A stretch of DNA of 64,000 nucleotides from Acholoe squamosa (lineage: Eukaryota; Annelida; Polychaeta; Phyllodocida; Polynoidae). Below are positions 1,386 through 58,900 of the stretch, one piece after another (positions within the stretch are counted from its first letter, which is position 1; every line of letters begins with the position of its first letter). A program made the translations under genes and the position numbers. The DNA is taken from the NCBI GenBank assembly GCA_949317995.1, contig OX439048.1, positions 66,903,375 through 66,967,374 on the forward strand, in the 5' to 3' direction. The notes beneath the pieces were generated by a model, which was not told where the DNA came from, did no database searches, and saw nothing but the letters and a program-made list of their open reading frames with translations.

Positions 1386-2213
1386 AAACAGATTGAGATA
1401 CCAAAAGAACATAAGATTTTCAAAATGTATTACAAATTCTCTTCATCCACACATAAGACATGTGTGACTGATAATGAATTACTTATATGTATATAAAGCC
1501 AATCAAATTTGTAAATATATCAGTAGGTTATTGCCTCTGAATGGTCAAAGACTGGGACCCTCCAAGTAAAGCAGACATGAAGTCTAAGAAGAGTAAGGGT
1601 AACACAGTGGAGTGTCTAAAGCCTAATCCCCACATGAAAGAGCGCGCTATGCCAACACAGCAGTCTATAGAGATCAATTGACCTTATAAGCTACCCTCAG
1701 ACAACTGTCTAGACGGTCATGAATGGCTGTCCTGGATGACAGGAGGAGCTAATTACCAGTACACAGACTACACAATAGACCCCACAGTTAGCAGACACTG
1801 GAGATTAATACATTGTCTCCAGAGAAACAATACCAGGCCCACAATGGATGTGGGTAGGGTAGGCTACATAAGAAGCACTGTGGACCATAGCCCACCATCA
1901 GTCTTCATCCAGCTGCAGTCTGGAACTCAAGTCTACAGGACCCCACTTGGGAATTAGCCAGCCCACTTCTCCATTAGGAGAGACTGCACTAGGATAAAGA
2001 ACACACCTACTTCACCTTCAACCTGACCTTACCATTTACTGGTCAATCTCTATAGACTCACCGGACATATTGCCAAGACAGCTCAATCTTGCAAAGGTAC
2101 AGTTTGAACCACTTCATTTAAAGTGTTGCACCATACACTTAGACTTTACCAGCACCCAAATCACTACAAATTTGACAAGACTTTAAACAGCAAACTTGCT
2201 TTACACAAGCACC
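1386..2213 (+). other. Spacer between pol and env of the retroelement
   Basis: No convincing gene is seen in these 828 bases. A 73-codon open frame (1736-1957) lies here but has no recognisable domain. In related env-bearing elements the env message is made by splicing from a 5' leader, so an env acceptor may lie here. I cannot pick one with confidence. Confidence 0.4.
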
Positions 2214-4838
2214 ATGGGGAGACTGAGAGTTTCACCCATACCGCTAACTATGCTGTTATTATATACTATAGAACCACTTACTGCAGGATATACACCTGTG
2301 GTGAGACAAAACATAGGAGTAGTATTCAAACCTAGCCCTCAACCATTGGTCAATGGACATACAACCACAACACTGTTGTTAGCTATCCCCTACAAGATAC
2401 CTCGGGCACCCGTTACCCAAGGATCCATAAGGGATAGAATACTCCATTTGACCACTCCTACTCTACAAGATCATACCTCTGGCCAAATTATCCAACAAGC
2501 CAAAGAGCTTGACACCTTGCTGGAAATTGCAGACAAGGAGATAAATGAAACATTAGCCTCCATCAAATTGTTCCTATCCAACCCCATAAACACATTGGAC
2601 AAGGCCAAAAGAGAGGCCATACTGGGTTTTCTAGCACCCCTGTTTCGCGGTGTGCTAGGTCTAGCCACAGTAGAAGATGTAAACCAAGTAATGGGACAGC
2701 TCAAGAACATAGATGAAATACTAAGAAAATTTGCTAAACAAGATCAGGAAGCAGCTAGTCTCATTGAAAAGATCACAGACAGACAAGATAAGTTTGTTAA
2801 AGCATACATCCAAGATAAGAAGGTACTGGACAGCACAATCAACACCATAGGTGACACCGTCAACCTGTGGGCCTCTAACATGTCCAGGTCACTTGACTCA
2901 TATTCAAGGCACGAGAAAACTCAAAGGGAAAAGATGCAAGTATTAAATGATGCATTAATTATCATAGCAGCAAAAATGAATACAGTTCAATCACTGCAAA
3001 GGACAAATGCAGCCCTGAGGATGCTATCATCAGGAATCCTAACCCCTGATATAGTACCACCCTCAGACCTTGCTAGATACTTAATTGACATTAATAACAA
3101 GCTAAGGATTACACACCCTGGAGCACAAGTCGCAATTAATGACTTAGATTTCTATTATTCACAGAAGCTGACCTCATACACTTACTCAGCTCACCATATA
3201 TATATTCATCTGGACATTATAATTCAATCTACCACCTCCACCTTCAAACTGTACCAAATGATTACATCACCCATGCCTATAGACACACAGGAGACCCCCA
3301 CCAGAGGAGTCACCAAATTGCAAACCACAACTGAGTTTCTAGCAGTATCTTACGACGAATCATTATTCATCGAATTGGACTCAGCAGATATGCAGGCATG
3401 CGAAGGTACTACAGTAAAGGTATGCAGAGATGTAAATGGTAGAATTTATAAACACAGGCCTACATGCCCTGTAGCCATTTTTACTAACCAGGCTCAACAG
3501 ATTAAGGAACATTGCAAGTTTACAGTTTCGCCACTGCAAGCACCTACCACCCATGCTATTTCCATTTCTGAAGATGAGTATCTGGTCACTACTAATGAAC
3601 CCCATTACTTTATCAACTGCCATGGTAAAACGTCTGAAACTCGAAAAGCCCAGTCCTACTCAATCATAGGTGTACCCTGTGGGTGCACAATCAGTGTAGG
3701 AGAATTTTCTCTTCCAAACACAAGGTTGCCCTGTAACTCAACCTTATCATTTCATTACAATCTCAAGACAATTAATTTACCATTCATGGCAGCACTCAAC
3801 CAAATTTCTGAAACCAAACCAGATGAAAGAGAGAATCTTCCAAATTTCCCAGTAGTAAACCTTTCTAGAACCTTAGAAAAACTACAGGAAAATCCAATCA
3901 TGGATGATATTACCCAACTAAATTTAGAGCCCTTTGCCAAAACATTATTAAAAGATGCCTCCAACCTTGATAAGGCAATGGAAACACGCTACGTAGAATC
4001 ATACCTACGTCGAGTTACAGAGCATCCAATCTTCCAAAGCTTAGGACTCATCCTAGGGATATCAGCTCACATTTTTATAGTATACATACTACTCAAACTA
4101 TACAGACTAGGAGGGACTGTAGCCTACCTGCCTACAGCCAAAGCCTTCAGACTAGTCACCGAGCTGCCCCTACACAAATTGCTCCCAGATAAGAATCCTA
4201 CCAAACTTACCCCTACAGAGGAAACTCACACCCCTTTCCTCACAATTCAGGAAACCCACACCCTGATAATCGCTATATTATTCACCCTGACCATCTACTC
4301 AGCCTACAGAATAATGAAGTACCTTAAGAAATTTGCACAGACACACTGTGGCAAGAAAAATGTGGCCAAGCGCACAAATCCCACAATATATTTTAAAATA
4401 TATTGTGGAGACTCAAACTTCGCGCTACCCCTGAGGCCAATACCACATGAATTTGATGAGATTAAATCAGCAGCTGCCCCGACCTATAAGGATATAGTGG
4501 TTAAAACCTTCCCACTACCTAAGGCTATATTTACCTGGAATGGACCAGCAGTTATAACAACACAGAGAGGAGAATTTGCTTATCACCTCCCTCAGGTGAT
4601 ACACCTACCTTGGCGCACTAGGTTCAGTACCATACCAGCCCTTAAAAACAAAGGACTGTACTACTCCATGCTTCTCCAGAACGATTGTGGCACCAGCCCG
4701 GTGACCATGACAGCACTGGAAAATACAACAGATATAATTATTGACGAACACCAGGAGGAGACCGCAAGGTCAAACATGCAGACTATTGCTAATTTTCTAA
4801 GCCACCAGCCCTCCCCGGTGACTGTGGAAACAGCCTAG
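2214..4838 (+). CDS. env: Envelope-like fusion glycoprotein (baculovirus F / errantivirus Env type)
   Basis: The start chosen is the ATG at 2214, in a strong context (caccATGG), giving 874 residues; the frame is open a little further upstream without an ATG. Visible parts in order: a signal peptide (about 1-24); a basic KAKR cleavage-like site at 130-133; a hydrophobic, glycine-containing segment (about 135-155) in the place of the F-type fusion peptide; helical heptad-like sequence (about 160-270); a conserved-looking GILTPDIVPPSDL block (274-286); a cysteine-rich ectodomain (Cys near 396, 404, 418, 434, 469, 489, 491, 507); and two hydrophobic segments (about 608-630 and 682-702). About 170 residues follow the last segment, longer than the tail I would expect. 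Predicted role: membrane fusion at the surface of a retroviral-like particle. There are no internal stops. The F-type assignment rests on the order of cleavage site, fusion segment and downstream blocks, not on a search. Confidence 0.82.
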   Translation: MGRLRVSPIPLTMLLLYTIEPLTAGYTPVVRQNIGVVFKPSPQPLVNGHTTTTLLLAIPYKIPRAPVTQGSIRDRILHLTTPTLQDHTSGQIIQQAKELDTLLEIADKEINETLASIKLFLSNPINTLDKAKREAILGFLAPLFRGVLGLATVEDVNQVMGQLKNIDEILRKFAKQDQEAASLIEKITDRQDKFVKAYIQDKKVLDSTINTIGDTVNLWASNMSRSLDSYSRHEKTQREKMQVLNDALIIIAAKMNTVQSLQRTNAALRMLSSGILTPDIVPPSDLARYLIDINNKLRITHPGAQVAINDLDFYYSQKLTSYTYSAHHIYIHLDIIIQSTTSTFKLYQMITSPMPIDTQETPTRGVTKLQTTTEFLAVSYDESLFIELDSADMQACEGTTVKVCRDVNGRIYKHRPTCPVAIFTNQAQQIKEHCKFTVSPLQAPTTHAISISEDEYLVTTNEPHYFINCHGKTSETRKAQSYSIIGVPCGCTISVGEFSLPNTRLPCNSTLSFHYNLKTINLPFMAALNQISETKPDERENLPNFPVVNLSRTLEKLQENPIMDDITQLNLEPFAKTLLKDASNLDKAMETRYVESYLRRVTEHPIFQSLGLILGISAHIFIVYILLKLYRLGGTVAYLPTAKAFRLVTELPLHKLLPDKNPTKLTPTEETHTPFLTIQETHTLIIAILFTLTIYSAYRIMKYLKKFAQTHCGKKNVAKRTNPTIYFKIYCGDSNFALPLRPIPHEFDEIKSAAAPTYKDIVVKTFPLPKAIFTWNGPAVITTQRGEFAYHLPQVIHLPWRTRFSTIPALKNKGLYYSMLLQNDCGTSPVTMTALENTTDIIIDEHQEETARSNMQTIANFLSHQPSPVTVETA

Positions 4839-13475: not shown

Positions 13476-14638
13476 TGACTCCCTCCCTCCTTGTCATGTT
13501 TTTTTTACCAATTTTTCAGCGCTATATCGGTATGGAGAATTAATCCAACAACATTTGTGGATGGCCCCAGGCCCAGGGATACGTTTTCATTCTTTTATGC
13601 CACCATCGTAAAAAAAAGTTGGTTTCTCCCTACTGTTTTTGTTTTGGCTAGGATTTTGTATACTGTGTAGATTCTAGTAGTCCCATATCCAGCTCCAGGA
13701 CACTTATTTCTATAGATCCATGTCGCCAATCGATGCCGCCCTATTCTGCCTCACCTGCCGCTACTGATGGCTGGGTGTGTGTGTGGGGGGGGGAGGGGGT
13801 ACTAAAGTGAAGTTCTGGTCATGCAAAGAGTGTAGATCCCTCCCACAAGAAGAGGGGGGAATTTTTGTTTAATCATAGCAGTCTGAAAAAATCTCCCACT
13901 TAATTGGAAGAAAAAATTTACATTATTTATTGTTCTCAAGAAATATACATATACAATTGACAATGAAATTGAAAATGACTAATTCCATTTTCATTATCGG
14001 AGCTTTCATGTTTAAAATGACATTTAGATTTAAAGAAAAATAAATTCAGCACCAGTGCGAAGCTGGTCATTCTGAGATCTGAATTGGAATTTATTAAACT
14101 AAGAATATAACTACAGTCCCGTGAAGTGTCCTTAGTACCATGGATGTCCCACTTAGACAAAAACCTGTTTAGGATTTAGTAGAACAAAAGTTTTTTATAA
14201 AATATATAATATATGGTATACCGGTAGTAGTAGGGAGAAGCCGGGCATCTTTTTATTTATTTTTTTTGCGATCATTAGGAAAAGAATAATGTTAGAACAC
14301 AAGGCCTTTCATCTTTGTTAAAACAAATGAACCCTCCCTTATACATTACTATGGCATAAAACTGGAGGTGTGCGATAGTGGCAATGTAAGATATAACGAG
14401 GGAGCCATGATGAGTGTATCACGTGTGTGAAAAGGGGGGGGGGTAGTATGGGGGTAGTGGGCAGGGCGTGGTAGGGGTAGTGGTGGTGTTGGAGCAGGTA
14501 GATATCGATTTTAGTTTACCAGCTGAAGTTGAGTCAGTCAGACAGACAGACTTCATGGACTACCACAACAAGCTGTGGTATTAACTAGTATATATATAGA
14601 GTGCTGCCACTGGTATCCCATACTGCCACAACCCACAG
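13476..14638. other. No gene; low-complexity sequence
   Basis: Poly-purine, poly-T and G-run stretches, some with weak similarity to the repeats around. The open frame at 13936-14160 (-) has no recognisable domain. Nothing coding is supported. Confidence 0.4.
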
Positions 14639-15396
14639 GTAGAACTTTACTGGCATTTATCTGATTATGATAGAACTCCATGGATTAATGTGAGTATTAG
14701 CTATCAGTTAAGGTAGAACTTTACTGGCATTTACCTGATTATGATAGAACTCCATGGATTAATGTGAGTATTAGCTATCAGTTAAGGTAGAACTTTACTG
14801 GCATTTACCTGATTATGATAGAGCTCCATGGATTAATGTGAGTATTAGCTATCAGTTAAGGTAGAACTTTACTGGCATTTACCTGATTATGATAGAGCTC
14901 CATGGATTAATGTGAGTATTAGCTATCAGTTAAGGCAGAACTTTACTGGCATTTACCTGATTATGATAGAGCTCCATGGATTAATGTGAGTATTAGCTAT
15001 CAGTTAAGGCAGAACTTTACTGGCATTTACCTGATTATGATAGAGCTCCATGGATTAATGTGAGTATTAGCTATCAGTTAAGGTAGAACTTTACTGGCAT
15101 TTACCTGATTATGATAGAGCTCCATGGATTAATGTGAGTATTAGCTATCAGTTAAGGTAGAACTTTACTGGCATTTACCTGATTATGATAGAGCTCCATG
15201 GATTAATGTGAGTATTAGCTATCAGTTAAGGTAGAACTTTACTGCCATTTACCTGATTATGATAGAGCTCCATGGATTAATGTGAGTATTAGCTATCAGT
15301 TAAGGTAGAACTTTACTGCCATTTACCTGATTATGATAGAGCTCCATGGATTAATGTGAGTATTAGCTATCAGTTAAGGTAGAACTTTACTGGCAG
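14639..15396. repeat. Tandem array, 74-bp unit, 10 copies plus a partial
   Basis: Units start gtagaactttactggcatt and recur every 74 bases (14639, 14713, 14787 ... 15305, partial from 15379). Copies are nearly identical; the variants are gcagaac, tagaactcc/tagagctcc and tggcat/tgccat. Each unit contains taatgtgagtatt, which resembles a splice donor. Confidence 0.97.
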
Positions 15397-17399: not shown

Positions 17400-18685
17400 G
17401 AGATGAACGACTCTTACCCACCAACGAGAGCCTCATAGAACTTCTAGATATGGTACTGAACACAAACCACATCCAATTCAATGGGAAATAATACATGCAA
17501 ATCAGAGGGATGGCAATGGGGACCAGAGGAGTGAATTTTGAACTCCTATGACAAGAAACCAGCCACCTGGCTGAGATTCATCGATGACATATTTTTTGTC
17601 TGGGTAGAGGGACCAGATGAACTACACAAATGGGAAGAACACCTGAACGCAATGCATAACAGCATTAAATTCACACTAGAAAGTTCGACCATGGAGATTA
17701 ACTTCCTAGACACAAAAGTCAAAATTAACAAAGACAAAAGGCAGCTATACACGGACCTCTACAGGAAGCCAACTGATGTGAATAACTACCTCCACCATAC
17801 ATTGGCACATGCCCCCTCAACCAAGAAGAGTCTACCATACTCCCAGATGTTGAGATTAAGATGCATCTGCCACAAGGTAGAAGACTACCTGTACCACAGC
17901 GCCAGGAAAATGAGAGAATTTGAGGAAAAAGGGTACCCAAAGGAACTCCTTGAGGAGGTCTCCGAGCAGGTACTCAAAATGGGTAGGAAAGCACTCCAAC
18001 AACCAAAACCCAAAAATGATGAGAAATCTGAATCCAGTTACCTGATCAGTATGTACAGACCAGGTAACAATATTATTGACGAGATAGTGGGGAGAAACTG
18101 GGATATCTTGGGGGAGTCCAAAACCACCAAATTGGGGAAAAGACGCCCAAAACACCTCAAAGACAACTTAGTAAGGGCAGCCACAAGGTACCCAGTGTCC
18201 GAGGACGGGGAGCCCCTAGATAGAACCGAGCACAAAAAGTATAAACAAAAAAACAGATGTAAAATGATCAACTGTGAAAAATGTCAGAAAATTGACAAAA
18301 ATGGCCAGATTACATCGAAAACGACTGGGAGAAAACACCACACTAAGACCAACGTCACCTGCATGAGCTCAAATGTCATATACTGTCTGGAATGCACGAG
18401 ATGTGGCCAGCAGGAAAAACAGAACGCCCCATAAAAAAATGAATAGGGGATCACATAGGAGCCATAGACAACCAGACAGGAAAAACAGACTTAGCATGGC
18501 ACTTTAATCAGAAGGACCATGCACAATCGGCAGACACGAAGTTCTACATCGTAGACTTCATAAATCGACATCCTAAAAGTGAAAAGGGGATGAGACTCCT
18601 CTCACTTATAGAATATAAATGGATAGAAAAACTTAGTACTAAATGCCCACAAGGCATAAACACGAAGGACGGCAAATACGGCTAA
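17400..18685 (+). pseudogene. Penelope-like element: broken reverse transcriptase with GIY-YIG-like C-terminus
   Basis: Three pieces are visible. (1) 17420-17540 encodes FNGK, an in-frame stop, then QIRGMAMGT, the pre-catalytic block of Penelope-like reverse transcriptases. (2) 17538-18434 (298 codons open) carries the catalytic RFIDDIFFVW motif near 17575-17605, followed by NFLDTKVKI and YRKPTDVNNYLHH, typical of this group. It ends in a Cys-rich linker and VIYCLECTRCG, the usual entry to a GIY-YIG-type endonuclease domain. (3) A different frame to the TAA at 18683 carries an IGAIDNQ block and the WHFN and IEYKWIEKL blocks. At least one deletion, one stop and two frame changes make it non-functional. 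It normally copies RNA at target sites or chromosome ends. Confidence 0.88.
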
Positions 18686-23957: not shown

Positions 23958-26900
23958 GTGAGTGTGTTGATTTATGTGTATTGTATAACTCGCGTATAAG
24001 GCGCACTCGGTGTATAAGGCGCACCCTGAGTTTATTATTTAAAGGCTCACCTGGGGCTTGATCCTGAGCAGCTTAATGCTATAAATGTATACTTATACAT
24101 GAGGTGCACCTTACACATGAGGTGCGCCTTATACAAGGGGTGCACCTTATATGTAAGATATTACGGTAAAACTGATATAGGTGCTGAGTGCTGGTTACCT
24201 GCCAAACACCAGGACAGTCAGCAGGTGATGGCAGGTGGGGTAAAATATGACTGTACTCGAAAACATCTCTCTTAAACTATGGCTATAACTATTAAAGGAC
24301 CATCAGAGAGGCCTACTGAGGCCTATGGAGTCAGGGTTAGGCCTATGGGGTTAGGACAAGGATTTGATTCTGCTAAACCCTAGGGTGGCAGGGGGTGAGT
24401 AATGTACCAAAATGGGTCCTGAGTCTGTTCATTCAGGCGGCAGGGGGTGAGTAGTGTACCAAAATGGGTCCTGAGTCTGTTCATTCAGGCAGCAGGGGGT
24501 GAGTAGTGTACCAAAATGGGTCCTGAGTCTGTTCATTCAGGTGGCAGGGGATGAGTAGTGTACCAAAATGGACCATGAGTCTGTTCATTCAGGTGGCAGG
24601 GGATGAGTAGTGTACCAAAATGGACCATGAGTCTGTTCATTCAGATAGCAGGGGGTGAGTAATGTACCAAAATGGACCATGAGTCTGTTCATTCAGGTGG
24701 CAGGGGGTGAGTAGTGTACCAAAATGGACCCTGAGTCTGTTCATTCAGATAGCAGGGGGTGAGTAATGTACCAAAATGGACCATGAGTCTGTTCATTCAG
24801 ATAGCAGGGGGTGAGTAATGTACCAAAATGGACCATGAGTCTGTTCATTCAGGTGGCAGGGGGTGAGTAGTGTACCAAAATGGGTTATGAGTCTGTTCAT
24901 TCAGGTGGCAGGGGGTGAGTAGTGTACCAAAATGGGTTATGAGTCTGTTCATTCAGGTGGCAGGGGGTGAGTAGTGTACCAAAATGGACCCTGAGTCTGT
25001 TCATCCAGGCGGCAGGGGGTGAGTAGTGTACCAAAATGGACCATGAGTCTGTTCATTCAGGCGGCAGGGGGTGAGTAGTGTACCAAAATGGGTTATGAGT
25101 CTGTTCATTCAGGTGGCAGGGGGTGAGTAGTGTACCAAAATGGACCCTGAGTCTGTTCATTCAGGCGGCAGGGGGTGAGTAATGTACCAAAATGGGCCCT
25201 GAGTCTGTTCATTCAGGCGGCAGGGGGTGAGTAATGTACCAAAATGGGTTATGAGTCTGTTCATTCAGGTGGCAGGGGGTGAGTAGTGTACCAAAATGGA
25301 CCCTGAGTCTGTTCATTCAGGCGGCAGGGGGTGAGTAGTGTACCAAAATGGGCCATGAATCTGTTCATTCAGGCGGCAGGGGGTGAGTGGTGTACCAAAA
25401 TGGGCCATGAGTCTGTTTTTTCAGGCGGCAGGGGGTGAGTAGTGTACCAAAATGGACCCTGAGTCTGTTCATTCAGGTGGCAGGGGGTGAGTAGTGTACC
25501 AAAATGGACCCTGAGTCTGTTCATTCAGGCGGCAGGGGGTGAGTAGTGTACCAAAATGGACCCTGAGTCTGTTCATCCAGGCGGCAGGGGGTGAGTAGTG
25601 TACCAAAATGGACCATGAGTCTGTTCATTCAGGCGGCAGGGGGTGAGTGGTGTACCAAAATGGGCCATGAGTCTGTTCATTCAGGCGGCAGGGGGTGAGT
25701 AGTGTACCAAAATGGACCCTGAGTCTGTTCATTCAGGTGGCAGGGGGTGAGTAGTGTACCAAAATGGACCCTGAGTCTGTTCATTCAGGCGGCAGGGGGT
25801 GAGTAGTGTACCAAAATGGACCCTGAGTCTGTTCATTCAGGCGGCAGGGGGTGAGTAATGTACCAAAATGGACCATGAGTCTGTTCATTCAGGTGGCAGG
25901 GGGTGAGTAATGTACCAAAATGGACCATGAGTCTGTTCATTCAGATAGCAGGGGGTGAGTAATGTACCAAAATGGACCATGAGTCTGTTCATTCAGGTGG
26001 CAGGGGGTGAGTAGTGTACCAAAATGGGTTATGAGTCTGTTCATTCAGGTGGCAGGGGGTGAGTAGTGTACCAAAATGGGTTATGAGTCTGTTCATTCAG
26101 GTGGCAGGGGGTGAGTAGTGTACCAAAATGGACCCTGAGTCTGTTCATTCAGGCGGCAGGGGGTGAGTAGTGTACCAAAATGGGTTATGAGTCTGTTCAT
26201 TCAGGTGGCAGGGGGTGAGTAGTGTACCAAAATGGACCCTGAGTCTGTTCATTCAGGCGGCAGGGGGTGAGTAATGTACCAAAATGGGCCCTGAGTCTGT
26301 TCATTCAGGCGGCAGGGGGTGAGTAATGTACCAAAATGGGTTATGAGTCTGTTCATTCAGGTGGCAGGGGGTGAGTAGTGTACCAAAATGGACCCTGAGT
26401 CTGTTCATTCAGGCGGCAGGGGGTGAGTAGTGTACCAAAATGGGCCATGAATCTGTTCATTCAGGCGGCAGGGGGTGAGTGGTGTACCAAAATGGGCCAT
26501 GAGTCTGTTTTTTCAGGCGGCAGGGGGTGAGTAGTGTACCAAAATGGACCCTGAGTCTGTTCATTCAGGTGGCAGGGGGTGAGTAGTGTACCAAAATGGA
26601 CCCTGAGTCTGTTCATTCAGGCGGCAGGGGGTGAGTAGTGTACCAAAATGGACCCTGAGTCTGTTCATCCAGGCGGCAGGGGGTGAGTAGTGTACCAAAA
26701 TGGACCATGAGTCTGTTCATTCAGGCGGCAGGGGGTGAGTGGTGTACCAAAATGGGCCATGAGTCTGTTCATTCAGGCGGCAGGGGGTGAGTAGTGTACC
26801 AAAATGGACCCTAAGTCTGTTCATTCAGGTGGCAGGGGGTGAGTAGTGTACCAAAATGGACCCTGAGTCTGTTCATTCAGGCGGCAGGGGGTGAGTAGTG

Positions 26901-29900
26901 TACCAAAATGGACCCTGAGTCTGTTCATTCAGGCGGCAGGGGGTGAGTAATGTACCAAAATGGACCATGAGTCTGTTCATTCAGGTGGCAGGGGGTGAGT
27001 AGTGTACCAAAATGGGTTATGAGTCTGTTCATTCAGGTGGCAGGGGGTGAGTAGTGTACCAAAATGGGTTATGAGTCTGTTCATTCAGGTGGCAGGGGGT
27101 GAGTAGTGTACCAAAATGGGTCCTGAGTCTGTTCATTCAGGTGGCAGGGGGTGAGTAGTGTACCAAAATGGACCCTGAGTCTGTTCATCCAGGCGGCAGG
27201 GGATGAGTAGTGTACCAAAATGGACCATGAGTCTGTTCATTCAGGTGGCAGGGGGTGAGTAGTGTACCAAAATGGACCATGAGTCTGTTCATTCAGGTGG
27301 CAGGGGGTGAGTAATGTACCAAAATGGACCCTGAGTCTGTTCATTCAGGTGGCAGGGGGTGAGTTATGTACCAAAATGGACCCTGAGTCTGTTCATTCAG
27401 GTGGTAGGGGGTGAGTAGTGTACCAAAATGGACCATGAGTCTGTTCATTCAGGCGGCAGGGGGTGAGTAGTGTACCAAAATGGACCCTGAGTCTGTTCAT
27501 TCAGGTGGCAGGGGGTGAGTAGTGTACCAAAATGGGCCATGAGTCTGTTCATTCAGGCGGCAGGGGGTGAGTAGTGTACCAAAATGGACCCTGAGTCTGT
27601 TCATCCAGGCGGCAGGGGGTGAGTAGTGTACCAAAATGGACCCTGAGTCTGTTCATTCAGGCGGCAGGGGGTGAGTGGTGTACCAAAATGGGCCATGAGT
27701 CTGTTCATTCAGGCGGCAGGGGGTGAGTAGTGTACCAAAATGGACCCTGAGTCTGTTCATTCAGGCGGCAGGGGGTGAGTAGTGTACCAAAATGGACCCT
27801 GAGTCTGTTCATCCAGGCGGCAGGGGGTGAGTAGTGTACCAAAATGGACCATGAGTCTGTTCATTCAGGTGGCAGGGGGTGAGTAATGTACCAAAATGGA
27901 CCCTGAGTCTGTTCATTCAGGTGGCAGGGGGTGAGTAGTGTACCAAAATGGACCATGAGTCTGTTCATTCAGGTGGCAGGGGGTGAGTAATGTACCAAAA
28001 TGGACCCTGAGTCTGTTCATTCAGGTGGCAGGGGGTGAGTTATGTACCAAAATGGACCCTGAGTCTGTTCATTCAGGTGGCAGGGGGTGAGTAGTGTACC
28101 AAAATGGGTTATGAGTCTGTTCATTCAGGTGGCAGGGGGTGAGTAGTGTACCAAAATGGACCCTGAGTCTGTTCATCCAGGCGGCAGGGGGTGAGTAGTG
28201 TACCAAAATGGACCATGAGTCTGTTCATTCAGGCGGCAGGGGGTGAGTAGTGTACCAAAATGGGTTATGAGTCTGTTCATTCAGGTGGCAGGGGGTGAGT
28301 AGTGTACCAAAATGGACCCTGAGTCTGTTCATTCAGGCGGCAGGGGGTGAGTAATGTACCAAAATGGGCCCTGAGTCTGTTCATTCAGGCGGCAGGGGGT
28401 GAGTAATGTACCAAAATGGGTTATGAGTCTGTTCATTCAGGTGGCAGGGGGTGAGTAGTGTACCAAAATGGACCCTGAGTCTGTTCATTCAGGCGGCAGG
28501 GGGTGAGTAGTGTACCAAAATGGGCCATGAATCTGTTCATTCAGGCGGCAGGGGGTGAGTGGTGTACCAAAATGGGCCATGAGTCTGTTTTTTCAGGCGG
28601 CAGGGGGTGAGTAGTGTACCAAAATGGACCCTGAGTCTGTTCATTCAGGTGGCAGGGGGTGAGTAGTGTACCAAAATGGACCCTGAGTCTGTTCATCCAG
28701 GCGGCAGGGGGTGAGTAGTGTACCAAAATGGACCATGAGTCTGTTCATTCAGGCGGCAGGGGGTGAGTGGTGTACCAAAATGGGCCATGAGTCTGTTCAT
28801 TCAGGCGGCAGGGGGTGAGTAGTGTACCAAAATGGACCCTGAGTCTGTTCATTCAGGTGGCAGGGGGTGAGTAGTGTACCAAAATGGACCCTGAGTCTGT
28901 TCATTCAGGCGGCAGGGGGTGAGTAGTGTACCAAAATGGACCCTGAGTCTGTTCATTCAGGCGGCAGGGGGTGAGTAATGTACCAAAATGGACCATGAGT
29001 CTGTTCATTCAGGTGGCAGGGGGTGAGTAGTGTACCAAAATGGGTTATGAGTCTGTTCATTCAGGTGGCAGGGGGTGAGTAGTGTACCAAAATGGGTTAT
29101 GAGTCTGTTCATTCAGGTGGCAGGGGGTGAGTAGTGTACCAAAATGGGTCCTGAGTCTGTTCATTCAGGTGGCAGGGGGTGAGTAGTGTACCAAAATGGA
29201 CCCTGAGTCTGTTCATCCAGGCGGCAGGGGATGAGTAGTGTACCAAAATGGACCATGAGTCTGTTCATTCAGGTGGCAGGGGGTGAGTAGTGTACCAAAA
29301 TGGACCATGAGTCTGTTCATTCAGGTGGCAGGGGGTGAGTAATGTACCAAAATGGACCCTGAGTCTGTTCATTCAGGTGGCAGGGGGTGAGTTATGTACC
29401 AAAATGGACCCTGAGTCTGTTCATTCAGGTGGTAGGGGGTGAGTAGTGTACCAAAATGGACCCTGAGTCTGTTCATTCAGGCGGCAGGGGGTGAGTAGTG
29501 TACCAAAATGGACCCTGAGTCTGTTCATTCAGGTGGCAGGGGGTGAGTAGTGTACCAAAATGGGCCATGAGTCTGTTCATTCAGGCGGCAGGGGGTGAGT
29601 AGTGTACCAAAATGGACCCTGAGTCTGTTCATCCAGGCGGCAGGGGGTGAGTAGTGTACCAAAATGGACCCTGAGTCTGTTCATTCAGGCGGCAGGGGGT
29701 GAGTGGTGTACCAAAATGGGCCATGAGTCTGTTCATTCAGGCGGCAGGGGGTGAGTAGTGTACCAAAATGGACCCTGAGTCTGTTCATTCAGGCGGCAGG
29801 GGGTGAGTAGTGTACCAAAATGGACCCTGAGTCTGTTCATCCAGGCGGCAGGGGGTGAGTAGTGTACCAAAATGGACCATGAGTCTGTTCATTCAGGTGG

Positions 29901-30569
29901 CAGGGGGTGAGTAATGTACCAAAATGGACCCTGAGTCTGTTCATTCAGGTGGCAGGGGGTGAGTAGTGTACCAAAATGGACCCTGAGTCTGTTCATTCAG
30001 GTGGCAGGGGGTGAGTAGTATAGTGAGTAGTATATCAAAATGGATATTAGTTCCTGGCTGTATATGTATACGGTCCTTCCCTGTGGGTCCATGCACCTAT
30101 TAGGTATTTCCAATGGCTGCTAGATAACTCAGATTTCATACACCTTTCTTATAATTCATTTTGATTCAAGCATTTTTCATGAGTACCCTCATGAGATCGG
30201 CATAATGTATAAATGTATTCCTGACGAGGTGCCCGCTATACCAGCATTCACGCATCATGCCGTATCATGACGCATTGATGCACAGTGCTGTAGTTAATGT
30301 GAATACAGTGTGTGCTAGAGGTGTTATAATTGGTTTTAGGTTACCTGATGGTACTCTAACGTCATATGGTACCTGTATAGCTATAGGTAATGACTCAATT
30401 AGAACATTGATAATAAAGCAATGATAATTGGGATCAGGTTACCAACCAGCACTGGTGTTTTAGCGACAAATGGCAATCGGAAACCGGTATTATGTAGGTA
30501 AGAGAGTGATTATAACTTAGATAATGAATCAATGTATCCTACCCTAGCACAGCTCATAATAATAATAAT

Positions 30570-46900: not shown

Positions 46901-49900
46901 CAGGCTCTATATAAGACACCTTCAACCACCTCTGTCAGTTCACTCACTTCATCCTAGTGTATTAATAATTCTACACAGTACTGGCTACAAAGATCCATAA
47001 CTGTCCGAGATATAATGTATGCAGACAACACTGTTACAACACAGCCTGATCTGCTCCAACACATTTTGCACCTTGGTTGGGGTAGTGGTGAAGAGGAAAA
47101 GTGAAAAAAACAAAACAAAAAAAAACTGTTGAATATACCAGGAATCCTTGTAAAACTGAACGGTGGACCACCATTATTGTATTGCAATGAACCAGGGTAG
47201 TTACTACAAGAAGCCCCAGGTGGCAGTACAGTGGTATGATGGATCTCTGTGAAAAAGATTTCTGGCAACTTTGGGACAAAGATTGCATCCTTATTTTGCC
47301 AACATTTTGTTTACAGTGTGGGCTGTTTTAGTACCTATATTATTGTTTTCTTGTAGGGATTTAGGCCTTCAGGTTTTTTGCCAAATCAGGAAGTTTTAAG
47401 TTCCAAAAACCCATATTATATGTTCCCATATAAGACCTAATGTATTTTAGAGCTTCTAATTGAACATTTAAGGAGTGTGTGTGTGTGGGGGGGGGGGATG
47501 ATTCCTTATGGACTTTCAAAATATCAGAAACCAGCTACCCCGCAATAGGTCATTTTGCAAAACTTGACAGTAAGAATAAAAGTAACAACTTAAAAAACAA
47601 CACTCATCACTGCTAATATCAATATCCTGCTGCTCAGGTAACAAACATGTTTGTCAGTCTGACCAGCGTCACCTTGGTAACCAATTAACTAGAATGTGCT
47701 AACAAGATGAAAGGCTACATGACGCCGTACGATTATTATTTTATGATGCACCAATTCTGTGCTGGTGAGTCTGCTCAGCATGGACACATCGCATATCACA
47801 ACTGTGCAGTGGAGTATAATCTCAGCCCAGGTGAACATTTATAATGCATTATCAGGACCAGCCGCAATAATTCGTTCAATGCATTGAGCGGTACTTAAAT
47901 GGTTGAAATACGGAAATATATCAGTTCCGTTCACAGCACCCATGGGTTGCACCTCTTCTGTCCGGTCACATTATTCCATGGTGAAAAGAAAGCTATTAGT
48001 AGCATTTACCTTTTACCTGAGGGTTTTACATCTCAGATTTCCTGCAGTTTCCTGTTCCACTGCAGCCATGTTATTTCCTTCTCAAAGAAGCTGAAAATCT
48101 TCTTTTAAAAGCTCAAAAAAATGTCTCTTGTCTGTAGAGACACTCACTTGTTTTATTTAGAAGGATTTCTTAAATCTCCAGAAACAGAATTCCAGAAAGA
48201 ACCTTACTTATTCTATCAATACATTCTGCAAATAGAAATGATATCTGGATTTGGCATGTTCTTATTCTGTCTGATACCATTTCGTGGGTCAATTATATGT
48301 AAAGAACGGTCTGTCTCTGCAAGTGGACTTTAAAGCATAAAACATCAAGCATATATTTCATTCTGAAACCAGATATTTTCTATTTACAGGCCTGACCTTG
48401 GGTGGACACATCCTCTTCATCGTAATCACCGCAATCCTAGTACGCACCGGCTATGACATCCTCCCTATTACCTTTGACCGCATTCCCTTAGACATCCGCG
48501 ATGATGTAGACTACCTCCGGGGCCTCGCATGGTTGGGGAGAAATGACGCCGACAATAACATCATCACACGTATGGGGAGTAATTCAGCGAACCAGTCTGA
48601 GCGAAGTGAGAGCTCAGAGGCCCTGACCATGCTGTTCCAGTTGCCGGACGGCAACGTGTTCACGCAGGAAAACCTGAAACTCATGAAGACAGTGGAAGAT
48701 GACTTCTACAACAATCCTGAGTTCCAGAGTAAATTCTGCCTGCTGGACAGCAATCAAGCCTGTACTAAGGCTCGATCAGTCCTCAGATACTTCGATGGGA
48801 CATATAGTTCGCTCGATAGCACCTTCAACGACCCAAATTTCAATGACATCCAAAATGTACTCTATAAAGCATATACGCTCAACACAACAAAAAGTGCATT
48901 CCAGTATCACTTGGGTGTAAATGCAGTGATAGATGCAAATACAGCCACCTCTGATATCACAAGGGGTTACCTCCTGCTAGGCTCACCATTAGCTGGATAT
49001 GCCAACGCTTCAGACCAAGAAGATGAACAAGCAACAAAAGTGAAGACCTTCATGACCAATGAAATTAAGGTGAAGGCAGAGGCGTATTACAAAACAGGGG
49101 TAGGAAAGATGAAGTTCATATACAACAGTGGGACGCTGCTTGGTCTGACCATCAGTAGCCAGGTGTTTAAAGACATGGCGCTTGCCATCGGCAGTCTCGT
49201 CTTCATCATCGTCTTTGTTTGTTTACAGACAGGAACCCTCTGGGTTGGACTCTGGGCTATTTTTGGCATCATCGCCAGCTTTGCTGAGGCCAATATCTTC
49301 TATAGGGTCGCCCTGGATTTCCGTTACTTTGGTATATTCCACGTCCTGGCCATATTCATCATCCTGGGAATCGGTGCTGACGACGTGTTTGTTTTTTTCG
49401 ACACATGGAAGGAAACGGCGCACCACAAGTACAAAACCTTGGCTCACCGCCTCTCAGACTGCTACCGCAAGGCATCCCTGGCCATGCTCTTCACATCGCT
49501 TACCACAGGCATTGCCTTTGCCATCAGTGCATCTTCACCATTCCTTGGTATTGGCTCGTTTGGTGTGTTCTCGACGGTCCTGATCCTGGTGGACTACATC
49601 AGTGTGATCGTCTTCTTCCCATGTGTCGTGATCACGTACCACCTCTGGTTTGAGAAGTACACATGTTGTTGCTGTTGTCCTCGTAAGATGGTCGGTGATG
49701 ACCCTGACCCCGTGGGAAGAGGACCACAGGACACACAACGTAAGAACATTATTGTCAGGTTCTTTGCTGGGCCTTACTACAGATTCATCACACATAAGGT
49801 AGGATTTTATGATAATTTGATATCTATTTGAAAAAAATGAAATATTGAAAATGTGTACAATAGGTTTATCAATAGGAGTATTTCAGCTTGCAATGTTTAA

Positions 49901-52900
49901 CTTATCATTTTACCGGTATCCTGTTTTGGTGCCATGTGTTCCAGCTGCTCCATTTCACATTACTAGTATGTGTGGATGTGACCCTGTATTGAAGCTTTGA
50001 GGGGCTTGGCCTACATTAATACACCTTACTGAACCTCCCAGCACCTCGAGTCATACATCAAGGCTTGTAAAAGTGCTTGGAATTACCAAGCCAGGGTGCT
50101 TAAAAATCCTGGCTCTCCAATATTTAAGGGTTTAATTAAGTGACTCTAAAATTAGTCTAGTCTGAGAAAGCCCTAATTACTGGGCTGGGCACTTATTATG
50201 CTGAATACATCCGATAAGAGCTATTGAAACCTGTAAGTTCAATAGCACCAATGTATATAGCCCTGTGTAAAGGGTGAGACATCCGAAGCCCATTTAGTAG
50301 CTATAAGGAATGAATACCGGAGGAGAAAACACATATATTCTTAATTGTAGTGGGTACAAAAGCTGTTGCCGGATGAGTCTGCTGATCCCAATAATGAGCA
50401 TCGTAAGAACTTTTTAGTCAGGTTCTTTGCCGGGCCCTTCTACAGGGTCATTGCACATGAGGTTTGCAATAGTCAGTTAAACATTTGTTGAGTTATCAGT
50501 TAAATTTCTTAAATGTTGATATGATGTTGTTTTAAACCCTTCAAATTTTTACTCATTATGATGTCTCAAAAGTAAATAATCACACAAAAGGATATTGAGA
50601 AATGGTTGCAATGGAAAGATAAAACTTGAATAGTTTGGGGCCTAAAGGTACAAAATTCAGTGGATAAACCACCTAGACAATACCTTACCTAGTTCAGATC
50701 ATGTGCATTTTATCCCATACCACACTCTAAATGTTTCTGCTATTAAACCCATACTCTACCATGGACAGATTATGTGCTATTATTACCCACTTGACCAATA
50801 TAAGTTGTGTGCATTTAACCCATATTTTACTGTTTACAGGTTATTCGTTGGTTCATCCTCCTGTTCTATGCCGTCCTCATCGCTCTGTCCATCTACTTTG
50901 CCGCTCAATTGAAAATCAATGAAGAACAGGTATGTGGCTATTGACTGCAAATCAAGACTAATCAAGATATCCTTATATCCTTCTGTTTTAGTGGGTTTCT
51001 TTTCTTGACAAGATTTATAATTGATATTTTCCCTATACTGGGTGGTCTTTGACATACCAGGTATTTTCCTTAGAAAAATTAATTTCTTGAAACCCCCCCC
51101 CCCCCACCTCCTGAAAAGCTTTATTTAAATGATGAACACTGATGAAGGTGCAGGGAACTTATTTTCTGCTGTACATGTGTTATCCAAGCAAGTGAGGATT
51201 CCTAAAAAGAAATGACTATGAATTTCACAACTTTTTATTTCAATCACCTAAAATGTCTCTTGCTCGTTTGTACAGCTCACTCTTTATTTAATTCATCCAG
51301 ATCAAATTCCTGCCGGATAGCTCCAACTTTGGTCAGTACCTCAGTCTGAGATCTGAAGCGTTTGCGTCTACATCAGAGACGGGCAGCAAGGTAATGTTAG
51401 TCTGGGGGCTCAAACAGCAGGATCTGTCATCATGTCACAAAACTGACCCTGGGTGCTTCGGGAAAACCGTCTGGGACGATACCTTCGATTTAAACACTGC
51501 TGATGCACAGAATAAACTACTGGTATGTACTGAGTGTGCAAACTGTATTCCCAAGCTACTAAGCCTAAACTCAAAAGTCTGGTCAAAAGACCAATCATGT
51601 CTAGTATAAGACCCAAATATAAGCCTCGGTATGGCAAAGAGATCTGATTTAAATCACCTATCTGTGAATAGTTATCAACTTCTATGTGTAATATCTATAT
51701 CTATAGATATCCTGCTGAGATATATAGCTATTGAAACATTTCTAAATATGACTTGTGTTATATCCTAAAAATCAATAAAAGAACATTTCTTTCGACAATT
51801 ATGGAATTAATATCAAATTATATCCCAATGAAATTATCACAAGCCTGCCCTCCAATACAAGTTGTGCAGTAAAAAGACATAAGAGTTTCTTACATTATAC
51901 GCTTGTCCATCTTTACACCTATAGATCTATACACACCCCCATTTCAGGCATTATGTGCAGACCTGAAGGCCCTAAGTAAGGCGGAGACCGACTCACTCTC
52001 TATCCGCCGTAGTCTGGTGGATGACGTACCTGAGGTGCAGTGTTTTGTAGAGGAAATGAAAGTATTTTATCAGGTAAGTCCAAAATTATCTTTTTTAATA
52101 AACTCTCATAAAACCTCTTGTATAAACTGCATCCGTGTATAAGCCACATTGGTATTTTCAGAAAACGCTCGATGTCGCACCTTAGGCGTGAATGTATGAG
52201 TTTGCTCCTCTTCTATAGTGTATGTGAGGGTCCCTGTGTATTTCTATCTTTATTATGTTTATTTTGAACATGTCTACACAACTATAGGGATAGCATTACA
52301 TCTCCCTAAAACATATAACAGGGGTACTCCAAAAAAGTTTAAAAGAGTTTTTTGATATATAATTTCCTAATAATTGTGGAATCTGCAATTGAAGTAAACA
52401 TAAAATATAGAGAAATCCTCAGGCATCCTTATACTAGTGGCTGGAAGCGGGTCTGGTGCTGGTTCTGGCAACATGCACTGATAAGAACTGATAACATGGG
52501 ACCAGCGTGTCCCTGGAAGTGGGTGGTAACCAGGGATAAGGTACCCATCATGGTCCCCTCCAAATGGGGCTTGGAGGGTCAACAAATTCCGCCCCGGCTT
52601 ATGTACTGATCAGCCTGGTCCAAAGAGTACCAAAAGCAGGACAAACCTTCAACAGGACTTAGGAGGTCCATCTTATTCATTACTTTCCCCTCTCTGTTTT
52701 ATAGATCATTAACATTTATCTTGTTTCCTTCTACATGAGAAAGGCAACCCTTTCACCCCTTCTTACACATACCTTTTCATCAACCAAAAACCAAGAGTGA
52801 TTCAACTCCACCGAAGGGAACCCGGACGGACAAAAATAGTTTCCTGGCAAATTCCTACTTATGCCTTTGCTAGTAGCAACAAAACAAAGTGGGCAACCTG

Positions 52901-55900
52901 TTTGCCGTGGGTTGCGCCCTTGTAGGGTAGGATAAAGAGATCCTGGAGGTTGAGGATGGAGACAACTGTCAGGGCCTAGAGCAAAAGTACAGCCTCCATG
53001 CTAACACACCTCACAATACCATCAATGTACAACACTGAAAGAGTTATTTGATACCTGCAGACCGGATACAATACTTGCATATGTCAAGAACCTGGGATAC
53101 TACAGTCAAATTTAAACAGTAGAAACTTTCTTCCATAAAACCTTTAGGCACAAATAGCCATCACCAGTAGCTGACGTGCCGTAAAACACTAACTAACTAA
53201 CTAACTAACTAACCCATCATGGTATGTCTTATCAGTGGGCTTTACCTCAACCAGCAAAATTTAACATGGTGGATCCACAGGACGTCCATACTAAGCCCTA
53301 TAGGCTTTCACGCTGCCATATATATTCTGAGAAATGCAACCTCATGAGTCTCTGCAATGCTGCGTGCTATTGTGAGTTTACCAGTGTAGAACCTAATTTT
53401 AAAAACCGACCCCAGTTATATGCTGAAGAAAGACTTCATGGGAATGTTATGAGCCTATTTTGGTGCTTAATTTACACCATTTTCTCTTTCATCTTTTGTA
53501 TCAAAACCCAGATCATAAGCTGGGGAAGACTTTAGCAAAATGTGAATAGCTGATTTTGATGGTATTCTATAAGGCGTCATTGAATACGGACAGCCTCACC
53601 TCAGTGAATACGATGCAAAAATGTTCCATGGGAGTGGACATTTGCTTATAGACCGTATAGGGTTGATACATTCATGGAGGGTGAGTATGATGCATCGATG
53701 AAGTACATGCACTGTATCGGTGTATCATGATAATCTATAGGCATCATGTACTTCTGTATTAGCAGCCTTTAAAAGGCATAAAGGATAAACTAACACAGTT
53801 TGTGTGTAGCAGGGAATGTGCCTTGGTGACTGTATAATTCAGTGTTATGAGGCTGCCAGGTGACAAGGTCTCTGTTAGGGAGTGGTCATTATTTATCAAC
53901 AGGGGGGGAGGGTGGGTTTGAGGGGGGGGCGTAAAATTTTCAGACCCCTCCCGAAGGGGGGGGGCTAAAAAAATTCACCCTCTTTTTAGCAAAAAAGCCT
54001 GCGCGCTACTATAGATCAAAGAGTGGCGCGAAAACTCTCTGTGCCTCTGGCGCGGGGGGGGGGCGTAAAAAATTTCCGCGCGTCCGTGCAAAAACCCACC
54101 ACCCCCCCTGTTGATAAATAATGACCACTCCCTTAGGTGAGTATTGATTTCATACAATGAACCATCAGGAGTATACCATAATACTCAGCCTATAAGGAGC
54201 ACCTTGGTTTTAATGTGGCATATCCCCACTCAGGCCCAACCTATGTTAAAAGGTTTACCTGTAGTCATTTTGGTCATTTTTGGTCTAATTCCTTGCTTTA
54301 CGGCATGGTGCCAACTTTTTCTAAGCCTATATTACTAAGTAGGTGGTGGAGTTGATAGAGGGGGTCTGTTATGCTGTATTTCAGGAAAACCCTCTCACAA
54401 ATGAACTCAGAAAGCACTACAAAATATCAGAAGACACAAATTGTCCATGTGAATATATCTGTGGCTAAAACAGTTTTAAACGTAGCATGTCTCCCATATA
54501 TTAATTTTAGGAAAGTGCCATGTCATTGTCTGCATATTGATTTGAACAAAAGTTGTTCATGTCACTAAGCCCTATAATCTCTGTAGGGGTCCATTGCAGC
54601 ATATAAGTGCCTACCTTCATACATGAGGCATTACGGTAGACCCATGTGTCAGTGTCCTTGTGGACTGACACTTAATGGGGGTCAATATTTCTATGACAAC
54701 CGCCTTCAGACGTCATAAGGTTTTATAGGTATCAGGCGGTGCATGACTGAGCAATGTATGTATAATGCATATTTCGACAGCTACCATGAAATATTATTCA
54801 TGGTAGGAAAACTACATCTTTTTACATTGTTTGTTAAGTAGGATACATGTGTGTTTGATAACCTTTTAAAGGCCGATAGTGTGTTAAATTACACCATGCC
54901 CGTCTGTACACCGTGCCGACCCTTTAGGAGTGTATCAACCCCATGGGGTTGGCATGATGCATGAATACAGCCCTTGGTGAGTTACTCATCAGAACTGCAT
55001 TCATGCATCATGCTGACCATGATGTACTAATACACTTCTGCATCAATGGTCCCTAAATGGTTGATACCAAACAGTTCAATATACTACTGACAATAACATA
55101 TTAATATGAAATGTTATATACAATGTGTGTTAGTGCAGAACATTAACTTCTTTGTCATACAACAATCAGCTTTACATATCCTTTGCTTCTAACTTTTCAT
55201 TGTCCCAAAAATATGTACCGCAAAGTCCTGCATATAAGGTGCACCCTTGTCTGTAAGGGTATGAGCTGCACTGTCATAAAGCTGCGAATGAAACTTAAAA
55301 AGAAGCTTTAAGCCATATATGGGGCTTGAAAATTGAAGGCTTAGTACTATTCTATTATATCATTTTGAGTACCTGCCCATAAGCCACACATCTTATTTGG
55401 GCAATTGCTTTATGCTGCAAAAGCATCTGGTTTGTGTATGAGCCACGACTTATGCCGTTTTTTATAGTTTCATAAAAGTTTGAGTAAAATGGCTTGGATA
55501 TCATGTCAATAATGGGTAATAGCCAATTTGATATTGTCTATACTTATGGTGGAGTATAGGCTGAGGATAGCCGGGTAAAGCTGACCCCTTTCTCCCCATA
55601 CCATAATGTGTAATACAGGTTTTGTTATTCTATAGGCGGAGGGTAGCCGGGTTTACCCTACCCCATTCTCCCCTACCATAATGTGTAATACAGGTTTTGT
55701 TATTCTATAGGCGGAGGGTAGCCAGGTTTACCCTGCCCCATTCTCCCCTACCATAATGTGTAATACAGGTTTTGTTATTCTATAGGCGGAGGGTAGCCAG
55801 GTTTACCCTTCCCCATTCTCCCCTACCATAATGTGTAATACAGGTTTTGTTATTCTATAGGCGGAGGGAAGCCGGGTTTACCCTGCCCCATTCTCCCCTA

Positions 55901-58900
55901 CCATAATGTGTAATACAGGTTTTGTTATTCTATAGGCGGAGGGTAGCCGGGTTTACCCTACCCCATTCTCCCCTACCATAATGTGTAATACAGGTTTTGT
56001 TTTTCTATAGGCGGAGGGTAGCCAGGTTTACCCTGCCCCATTCTCCCCTACCATAATGTGTAATACAGGTTTTGTTATTCTATAGGCGGAGGGAAGCCGG
56101 GTTTACCCTGCCCCATTCTCCCCTACCATAATGTGTAATACAGGTTTTGTTTTTCTATAGGCGGAGGGTAGCCAGGTTTACCCTGCCCCATTCTCCCCGT
56201 ACCATAATGTTTAATACAGGTTTTGTTATTTTATAGGCGGAGGGTCGCCGGGTTTACCCTGCCCCATTCTCCCCGTACCATAATGTTAAATACAGGTTTT
56301 GTTATTCTATAGGCGGAGGGTAGCCGGGTTTACCCTGCCCCATTCTCCCGTACCATAATGTTTAATACAGGTTTTGTTATTCTATAGGCGGAGGGTAGCC
56401 GGGTTTACCCTGCCCCATTCTCCCCGTACCATAATGTTTAATACAGGTTTTGTTATTCTATAGGCGGAGGGTAGCCGGGTTTACCCTGCCCCATTCTCCC
56501 CGTACCATAATGTTTAATACAGGTTTTGTTATTTTATAGGCGGAGGGTAGCCGGGTTTACCCTGCCCCATTCTCCCCGTACCATAATGTTTAATACAGGT
56601 TTTGTTATTCTATAGGCGGAGGGTCGCCGGGTTTACCCTGCCCCATTCTCCCCGTACCATAATGTTTAATACAGGTTTTGTTATTCTATAGGCGGAGGGT
56701 AGCCGGGTTTACCCTGCCCCATTCTCCCCGTACCATAATGTTTAATACAGGTTTTGTTATTCTATAGGCGGAGGGTCGCTGGGTTTACCCTACCCCATTC
56801 TCCCCTACCATAATGTGTAATACAGGTTTTGTTATTCTATAGGCGGAGGGTAGCCGGGTTTACCCTACCCCATTCTCCCCGTACCATAATGTTTAATACA
56901 GGTTTTGTTATTCTATAGGCGGAGGGTAGCCGGGTTTACCCTGCCCCATTCTCCCCTTGACATAATTTGTAATATAGGTTTTGTTATTCTATAGGCGGAG
57001 GGTAGCCGGGTTTACCCTACCCCATTCTCCCCTACCATAATGTGTAATACAGGTTTTGTTATTTTATAGGTGGAGGGTAGCCGAGTGTACCCTGCCCCGT
57101 TCTCTCCGTACCCGGGCGGTACATCGTTTACCTACCCACTGGACTCTACAGAGGTGAACACCATCATGACGACTAACAGCTTGGTGTACAATATGTCTCG
57201 AATACCCACTGGATTCAACAGGCACTTTGAGGTACGTATTCTATTTTAAACCCACCAGTACCATAAAGCATCCTCCAGAAGCTTACCAAAATTTCAAATT
57301 TGGAGGCTAACCTGTTTAAGAGTACCGTAATCTCCCGCGTATAAGGCGCATCTTATAAAGGGGGTTTAGTTCTCATTGGATCCACAAGGAGGACACCAAG
57401 ACCTTTCTTTTGATATCTTACATGCCCCCTTGGTCATAATAGGACAAAATGGGGCCCAGGAGGGCCCCAGGTGGCCCAAGGTTATTGAATTTTAAAAATT
57501 CACTAAGTAAGACCAAAGATATGAATTTTTCATTTTTTTGAGAATTTTCCAAAACTCTAGGTGTGCCTTATACGCGGGCTGTGCCTTATACGCGGGAGAT
57601 TACGGTAGGGGTTTTGAAAGGTTTTTTTATGGTGATATGCACCCTTCCCCTAGCAAGCGCCTCCCCTTTTGGACCATTTCGAAGACTGTAAAAGAGTGCA
57701 AACGTTTTAGCCACTGATACTCTTATTGAAAAAAAATCACATCAATATAATTTCTCCAGGCATAAAAGTTATGGTAAGGATAAACCCTCAAAGATAAGCC
57801 AAATATATTTGGACATTTTTTTCTTAAGCATTGATTCAACTCTAGCCGATATCTCACCTGATAAAGGCAGGGGTGGATCCAGTTACAATATCAGAGGTAT
57901 TTACAAAGGAAAATAATAATATCATATTTCCTTTGGCATGTTTTCTCCCTGTGCCTTTTAAGATGGCTATCACAGGTGATAGATTTATCAATATTTAATC
58001 AAGCAAGAAGGGATTTTCCTGATCCCTAAAATACACTGTATTTCCTCGAAAAAATAAGACATTTTAGTTAAACTTCCAGGTAAGTCTCCCAAAATTCTAA
58101 TATATATGATTTACTTCTACAGATTGCGACTTCATTCTGGCTGTTCAATGGGTTCCGGATAAGTCCAACAAGTGGCCTTGACCTTGGAGACCAGCTTATG
58201 ATGCACAGTTCGTACCTGGGGGAGGAAAAGACGACGGACACCGTAGAGAAAAGCTTCTCAACAACAGGTAGAGTGCATTATTCAACTAATGATGAGGGCA
58301 TGAAGGAGAAGAATAGTTTCATCTGGAGACTGGACAAGAGCAGCGGTTCATATTGACAATGTTCATCCTGACTTACAAGTATTGGTACAAGGCGACAAAA
58401 TCCTGAGGTGTCTCGTGGCTCACAGCAGATATTATGTTGGCAGCTGAAATGCACCAACCTGGGCCTACATCTTGGTGGTCTACCATACGATTCATCCTCA
58501 TGGTACAACATTCAAAATGATAAGACTTTGCCTGTGACATAAAACAAATCAACCAACCATTACATCATAATCAGTCAATCAATCTAATTCCCTCTGTCCC
58601 TCCCTCCACCTCTCCCTTGGGGGCACAATTTAGATCAGAAAAGAAAGAGGGAAAAAAGACTTTCTTTTGTTGTTGTGTCACTCTGTATGAACTTCAAAAT
58701 CCAGTATTAAATGGATTTATTGTGTTTTACAGGGATGAGTTATTTCTACGCCACCAGACTCCGCTATGCCGCCATCGTTGTCAATACGACTATAACTGCA
58801 TCTAACTTTGGTTACCCCAAAGGACTCCCCATCAGAGACACCTGGGAGGACTATACCACACGACAGGTATGTCTGAGCATTATACCAGACAAACTCTCTC

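Follow-up and report, generated by a model that had tools for sequence, protein, structure and literature searches.

Analysis of a 64,000-nucleotide stretch of the Acholoe squamosa genome (assembly GCA_949317995.1, contig OX439048.1, positions 66,903,375 to 66,967,374; hereafter the window, which contains no unknown bases) confirmed a tandem array of a 75/76-bp unit lying across the boundary between intron 6 and exon 7 of a Dispatched-like RND transporter gene on the plus strand (55555..57112 of the window). The array consists of 20 decoy copies of a splice acceptor with the exon start attached to it, and of one last copy, at the edge, which is the real boundary. We consider it most probable, at roughly 85%, that the array is a “mirage,” that is, a boundary-spanning minisatellite which expanded neutrally, that the real exon is the copy at its right-hand edge, and that splicing uses the last acceptor.

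The main solution of Tandem Repeats Finder (TRF) covered 55555-57112 with a period of 75, 20.6 copies and 95% matches, and a second solution had a period of 227 and about three units. Cutting the sequence after each TATAG gave 21 copies, 20 decoys and the real site, with first bases at 55560, 55636, 55711 and so on to 56995 and 57070; ten of the 20 spacings were 75 and the other ten 76 bases. Both approaches agree with the structure reported in a preliminary description of this DNA, in which a 75-76-bp unit is present 20 times in the intron and the 21st copy is the start of the real exon 7. Each unit joins 33-34 bases from the end of the intron to 42-43 bases, or 14 codons, from the start of the exon, and an AG precedes all 21 copies, the 20 decoys and the real site alike. 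The peptide encoded by the exonic part has 14 residues in the real exon and 13 in the commonest decoys.

Decoy copy 1 (55560..55635, plus strand) is a degenerate edge copy that kept its AG and is without a pyrimidine-rich tract; its mismatches to the decoy consensus number 9 in the 37 exon-like bases and 22 in the 34 bases preceding the copy. Decoys 2-20 (55636..57069, plus strand) each combine a TATAG acceptor with 42-43 exon-like bases and hold no positive-scoring donor. Compared over the same 37 bases, the inner copies differ from the consensus at 0-3 positions, while the edge units differ at 9 (copy 1) and 5 (exon copy). Decoys 2-20 comprise 16 distinct sequences, with 4 of 171 pairs identical and a mean of 3.6 differences per 76 aligned columns. 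Tandem arrays are error-prone in assemblies and the copy number was taken from the assembly alone, and one or two true copies might have been multiplied artificially. We regard this as very unlikely, because the 16 distinct sequences among decoys 2-20 argue against simple multiplication by the assembler; the TRF solution with period 227, the degenerate edge copy and the comparable arrays at unrelated genes described below point in the same direction.

A 151-base probe from the array, searched against the genome (63 contigs, 1.48 Gb), returned 14 matches. All of them fall in this array, which speaks against a dispersed satellite or a transposon-derived repeat within the limits of a search that was not exhaustive for very common words. 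On the plus strand, no open frame of at least 38 codons was found in 55308-57041, and on the minus strand none of at least 55 codons lay wholly within the array; a minus-strand frame of 58 codons (57067-57240) overlaps its last 46 bases. RNA folding was unremarkable, with z-scores of -0.60, 0.03, and -0.34 for three stretches of 75/76 bases and of -1.55 for a 105-base stretch reaching into exon 7.

The identity of the gene was settled by the open frame of exon 3 (48341-49828), which matched chains of Dispatched homolog 1 in the PDB with an E-value of 4.2e-21. In total, this frame matched 29 distinct PDB sequences at E ≤0.001, and weaker matches were to Patched (best E 3.9e-10) and to NPC1-type proteins. 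The translation of exons 7-11, begun within exon 7, matched Dispatched in the PDB weakly (best E 0.0065), and a Pfam scan of this translation returned no families. Exon 6 (51948..52073, plus strand, as for the following features) has 42 codons in phase 0 and ends in the donor TATCAG/GTAAGT. Intron 6 (52074..57069) is 4996 bases long, and the array makes up its last 1.5 kb. Exon 7 (57070..57231) has 54 codons in phase 0; TTTTATAG directly precedes its start at 57070, its initial 43 bases are the final copy of the unit, and it is followed by the donor GAG/GTACGT (57232..57237).

A paralogue was found on contig C4, where its matches fall within 48746045-48754323, and alignment of 11 exon blocks gave 723 identical positions out of 948. 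The exon 6/exon 7 junction of the paralogue falls at the identical codon position and in the identical phase, and its exon 7 likewise has 54 codons. Its intron measures 150 bases (C4:48746171-48746320), and TRF found no repeat in it. When the repeat unit was compared with 600 bases around this intron, the only match was of 12 bases, at the boundary itself. Since the paralogue has a matching boundary and phase with no array in its intron, the comparison places the true start of exon 7 at 57070, which answers the concern of the preliminary description that the exon might start elsewhere. The exon 6/exon 7 boundary is therefore old, and the array was either gained in this gene or lost from the paralogue, which provides an internal control. 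Elsewhere in the gene, a 37-codon open stretch in phase 0 (50351-50461) resembles the end of exon 3, and the single such stretch of the paralogue matches both; it is perhaps an alternative or a decayed exon copy.

Splice sites were scored with approximate vertebrate frequencies, which may not fit an annelid. The acceptors of decoys 2-20 scored 4.4-6.1, the real exon 7 site 4.9 and copy 1 -2.5; for comparison, other acceptors of the gene scored 4.7 (exon 8), 6.1 (exon 10), and 4.7 (exon 11). A scan for donors in 55500-57299 found no GT above zero in copies 2-20; the positive scores belonged to 55575 in copy 1 (1.8), to 57154 within exon 7 (2.1) and to the real donor (4.8). When joined to the exon 6 donor, each of the 20 decoys led to a stop in frame, at codon 14 at the earliest and codon 29 at the latest, 162 to 1618 bases upstream of the exon 7 donor. 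The distance to this donor is 162 bases for the real acceptor and 237 to 1672 for the decoys. Because no donor scores above zero there, decoys 2-20 would on this score be unlikely to act as internal exons or to add in-frame peptides.

These results bear on several earlier suggestions. The statement that every decoy acceptor is about as good as the real one holds for 19 of the 20 but fails for copy 1. As had been described, the rest of the exon and a donor follow the last copy only, with the exon 7 donor at 57232, and the premature stops that were foreseen occur in every decoy. Joining across decoys and short peptide inserts, on the other hand, find no support, as the only positive donor within a decoy is the weak one at 55575 and each of the decoys meets a stop. 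The same observations bear on a cluster of alternative or mutually exclusive exons as in Dscam, in which every copy would be a small exon. Exon-like copies in tandem, each with an acceptor, are what such a cluster would look like; however, given the donor scores of copies 2-20, the stop after every decoy acceptor and an exon-like variation without codon bias (see below), we consider it extremely unlikely.

For the mirage we propose that a segment straddling the intron 6/exon 7 boundary was duplicated in tandem and would then have grown to 20 intronic copies, with its inner units homogenised, by unequal exchange or slippage. The preliminary description had proposed that replication slippage captured a functional splice site; capture of a working acceptor by tandem expansion stands, while slippage is indistinguishable here from unequal crossing-over. 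The acceptor at 57070 would most likely still be chosen. As intron 6 is 5 kb long, exon definition is the expected mode of recognition for exon 7, and of all the acceptors the real one has the shortest distance to the exon 7 donor, which would favour it; when introns are large, splicing is reported to prefer the sites lying closest across the exon (PMC9225289). Transcripts spliced to a decoy, with their early stop at codon 14 to 29, would be removed by nonsense-mediated decay. The array may thus be tolerated because the last acceptor probably defines exon 7 and mis-spliced transcripts stop early.

Several points weigh against the mirage reading. Among competing 3′ splice sites the upstream one is preferred overall, a preference that is reduced in exon definition (PMC9225289), and proximity alone may therefore not exclude the decoys. 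The AG was kept in 20/20 decoys, which could reflect recent homogenisation or constraint. Acceptor choice, like decay and the mode of expansion, we infer from genomic sequence alone; the copy number comes from one assembly, and the splice-site scores come from vertebrate and not from annelid frequencies. Of the questions that experiments could address here, why the decoys would be ignored is the most interesting.

Regulated unproductive splicing would offer another role for the decoys, which would compete for the exon 6 donor, so that the share of transcripts going to decay would depend on how many decoys there are, and the array would tune expression of the Dispatched-like gene. The intact AG of all decoys, the 19 acceptors scoring like the real one and the premature stops after 20/20 of them agree with this explanation. 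However, the exon-like part of the decoys is without sign of constraint, the intron of the paralogue has no array, and the AG is gone from 20 of the 24 decoys of a similar array in a myosin gene (locus L034, see below), so arrays do not keep functional decoys as a rule. We therefore judge regulation through the decoys to be unlikely.

The mean pairwise difference per site was calculated for both parts of the unit: for decoys 2-20 it was 0.0384 over their initial 37 exon-like bases, and for the 34 bases that lead up to acceptors 3-21 it was 0.0389. The five polymorphic exon-like columns fell 3/1/1 on codon positions 1/2/3. Of the five differences between the real exon and the decoy consensus in 37 bases, four read as synonymous. 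The decoys hence vary like unconstrained DNA and the exon like coding DNA, in numbers that are small; selection does not act on the copies as coding sequence, nor, probably, as splice sites.

Between the paralogues, 5/14 residues of exon 7 are identical inside the unit (57070-57112) vs. 29/40 elsewhere in the exon (Fisher p 0.024). Among 805 overlapping 14-residue windows of the alignment, six had at most five identities, all of them starting in exon 7 residues 1-7, and no other stretch of the 948 aligned residues has diverged as far between the paralogues as the 14 codons of the unit. Sequence exchange with the array could have altered the edge of the exon; a loop at the start of exon 7 that is variable by nature would give the same picture. 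The divergence at this edge hints at a wider claim, namely that splice-site-capturing minisatellites are frequent in the genomes of annelids and play more than a passive part, with the array exchanging sequence with its exon and rewriting the coding edge, and the copy number setting the loss of transcripts to decoys; we consider this claim unlikely.

Other cases were looked for in 60 sampled exon loci, each taken with 1.5 kb on either side (157,501 non-redundant bases in all), made up of 30 of the 79 myosin-head matches and 30 of the 63 SNF2 matches in the genome. Counting arrays with a period of at least 20, at least three copies and a TRF score of at least 100, we detected eight, two of which span a splice site. 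Both came from the myosin sample, while the 30 SNF2 loci had none. In the first case (L030 2793-3189 with L081 21-607, contig C7), 12 decoy donors, all GTAAGT, follow an exon of a myosin gene, which we take to be of the myosin-I type. The exon end KKRPDT/GTAAGT is followed by the array and then by the open stretch AGTQFKQ...YIRCIKPND; in the unit of 45 bp, the final 9 bases of the exon are combined with the donor and intron sequence. The first decoy donor would add 15 codons in frame without a stop, whereas the other 11 include one.

The second case concerns another myosin gene (L034 1800-3200, minus strand of the locus), where the acceptor ACTACAG/GCCTACTGGATATCTATGGCTTTGAG is accompanied by 24 decoy acceptors, mostly 54 or 68 bp apart, four with AG and 20 with AT. 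Since 20/24 lost the AG, the decoy acceptors are dispensable at this locus. The captured exon start reads GLLDIYGFE, which looks like a normal myosin motif, while the decoys drifted; capture therefore need not alter the protein. As for the other six arrays, five (two on contig C13 and those at L040, L060, and L079) showed no coding overlap at the edges inspected, and the one at L077 lies inside an open frame and may be coding. Chance capture is enough to explain the observed cases.

Repeats with splice-like motifs were also seen in the window and in the paralogue. Intron 1 of the Dispatched-like gene holds 108 copies of a 52-bp unit (24387-30019) whose consensus has a donor-like GTGAGT and an acceptor-like TTCAG; no adjoining exon was recognised at this array. 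At 14637-15395, 10.3 copies of a 74-bp unit with 99% matches carry GTGAGT and CAG motifs. The paralogue has tandem repeats with a unit of 20-21 bp upstream of its exon 2 (L019 1905-2816); CAG or CAGG is present in many of them, and they stop about 100 bases short of that exon.

Mirages were described in amphioxus as minisatellites over exon-intron boundaries (PMC3087553). The units of BflGb6 combine the 3′ end of an intron with the 5′ part of an exon (units of 150-160 bp, 6 of them in one haplotype and 3 in the other), and those of BflGb9 include the 3′ boundary of an exon. AG/GT signals are present in many, not all, copies, the units evolve in concert within a cluster with diverged units at the edges, and Adh3 data and globin reverse transcription-PCR suggest regular splicing; the structures were proposed as a starting point for new introns (PMC3087553). 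PGBD5 is a further amphioxus case, and troponin C is mentioned, in another report (PMC3902484). As in amphioxus, the unit described here runs across an exon-intron boundary, one copy in the array is the real boundary (21 copies, the last being exon 7), the copies carry splice signals (AG in 20/20 decoys, 19/20 scoring like the real site), and the inner units are homogenised and the edge units diverged. Here, however, the host is an annelid and not a cephalochordate, the unit is of 75/76 bp with 20 decoys, and the case is known from the sequence of one assembly; the array-free paralogue that marks the boundary as old is a feature of this case.

Intron gain by tandem genomic duplication in the potato RNA-dependent RNA polymerase gene shares with our case an intragenic tandem duplication involving splice signals (PMC4974935). 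Unlike there, the intron is common to the paralogue, and therefore no new intron was made here. The earthworm metallothionein gene is likewise from an annelid and has minisatellites in intron 1 and exon-4 copies absent from the transcript; the considered portion of its description contains no repeat unit uniting a splice site with exon sequence (PMC12783039). A literature search found no annelid case of a repeat unit holding a splice site among the titles and abstract openings listed, which mostly did not cover subscription literature and are no proof of absence. As far as the literature was searched, the array is therefore a known kind of structure in a new phylum. Boundary-spanning minisatellites would thus pass from a cephalochordate curiosity to something found in an annelid too, and a small part of one genome gave three cases. 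Arrays of this sort offer natural experiments on spliceosomal choice between many acceptors or donors that are almost the same. New introns might start from them, and they can mislead gene prediction and short-read mapping.

Further features of the window are retroelement-like open frames at 3-1382, 2187-4835, and 17535-18682, which we take to be integrase-like, a long frame without a name and a Penelope-like reverse transcriptase, respectively. The single COX1 match in the genome lay on contig C63 (15,641 bases). Read with the invertebrate mitochondrial code, this contig carries on one strand nad4L-nad4-large-subunit (LSU) rRNA-nad1-nad3-nad2-cox1-cox2-(about 236 bases)-cox3-nad6-cob-atp6-nad5, where the gene names other than COX1 and LSU rRNA are our assumption. 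LSU rRNA was called by Rfam on locus L083, where Rfam found no small rRNA at E 0.1, and atp8 was not identified in the about 236 bases between cox2 and cox3. Annelids depart from the bilaterian pattern in that nad6/cob follow cox3, atp6 lies between cob and nad5, nad5 and nad4L/nad4 are interchanged, and nad3 lies between nad1 and nad2 (PMC2639372); all four of these differences are present on C63, and the gene order by itself makes an annelid source very probable and speaks against amphioxus. Such an order of protein genes is common to many annelid groups, according to a further study (PMC4866719). Between the large rRNA and nad1 of C63, more than 400 bases of an alternating AT-type repeat (L083 4417-4867) are perhaps the control region.

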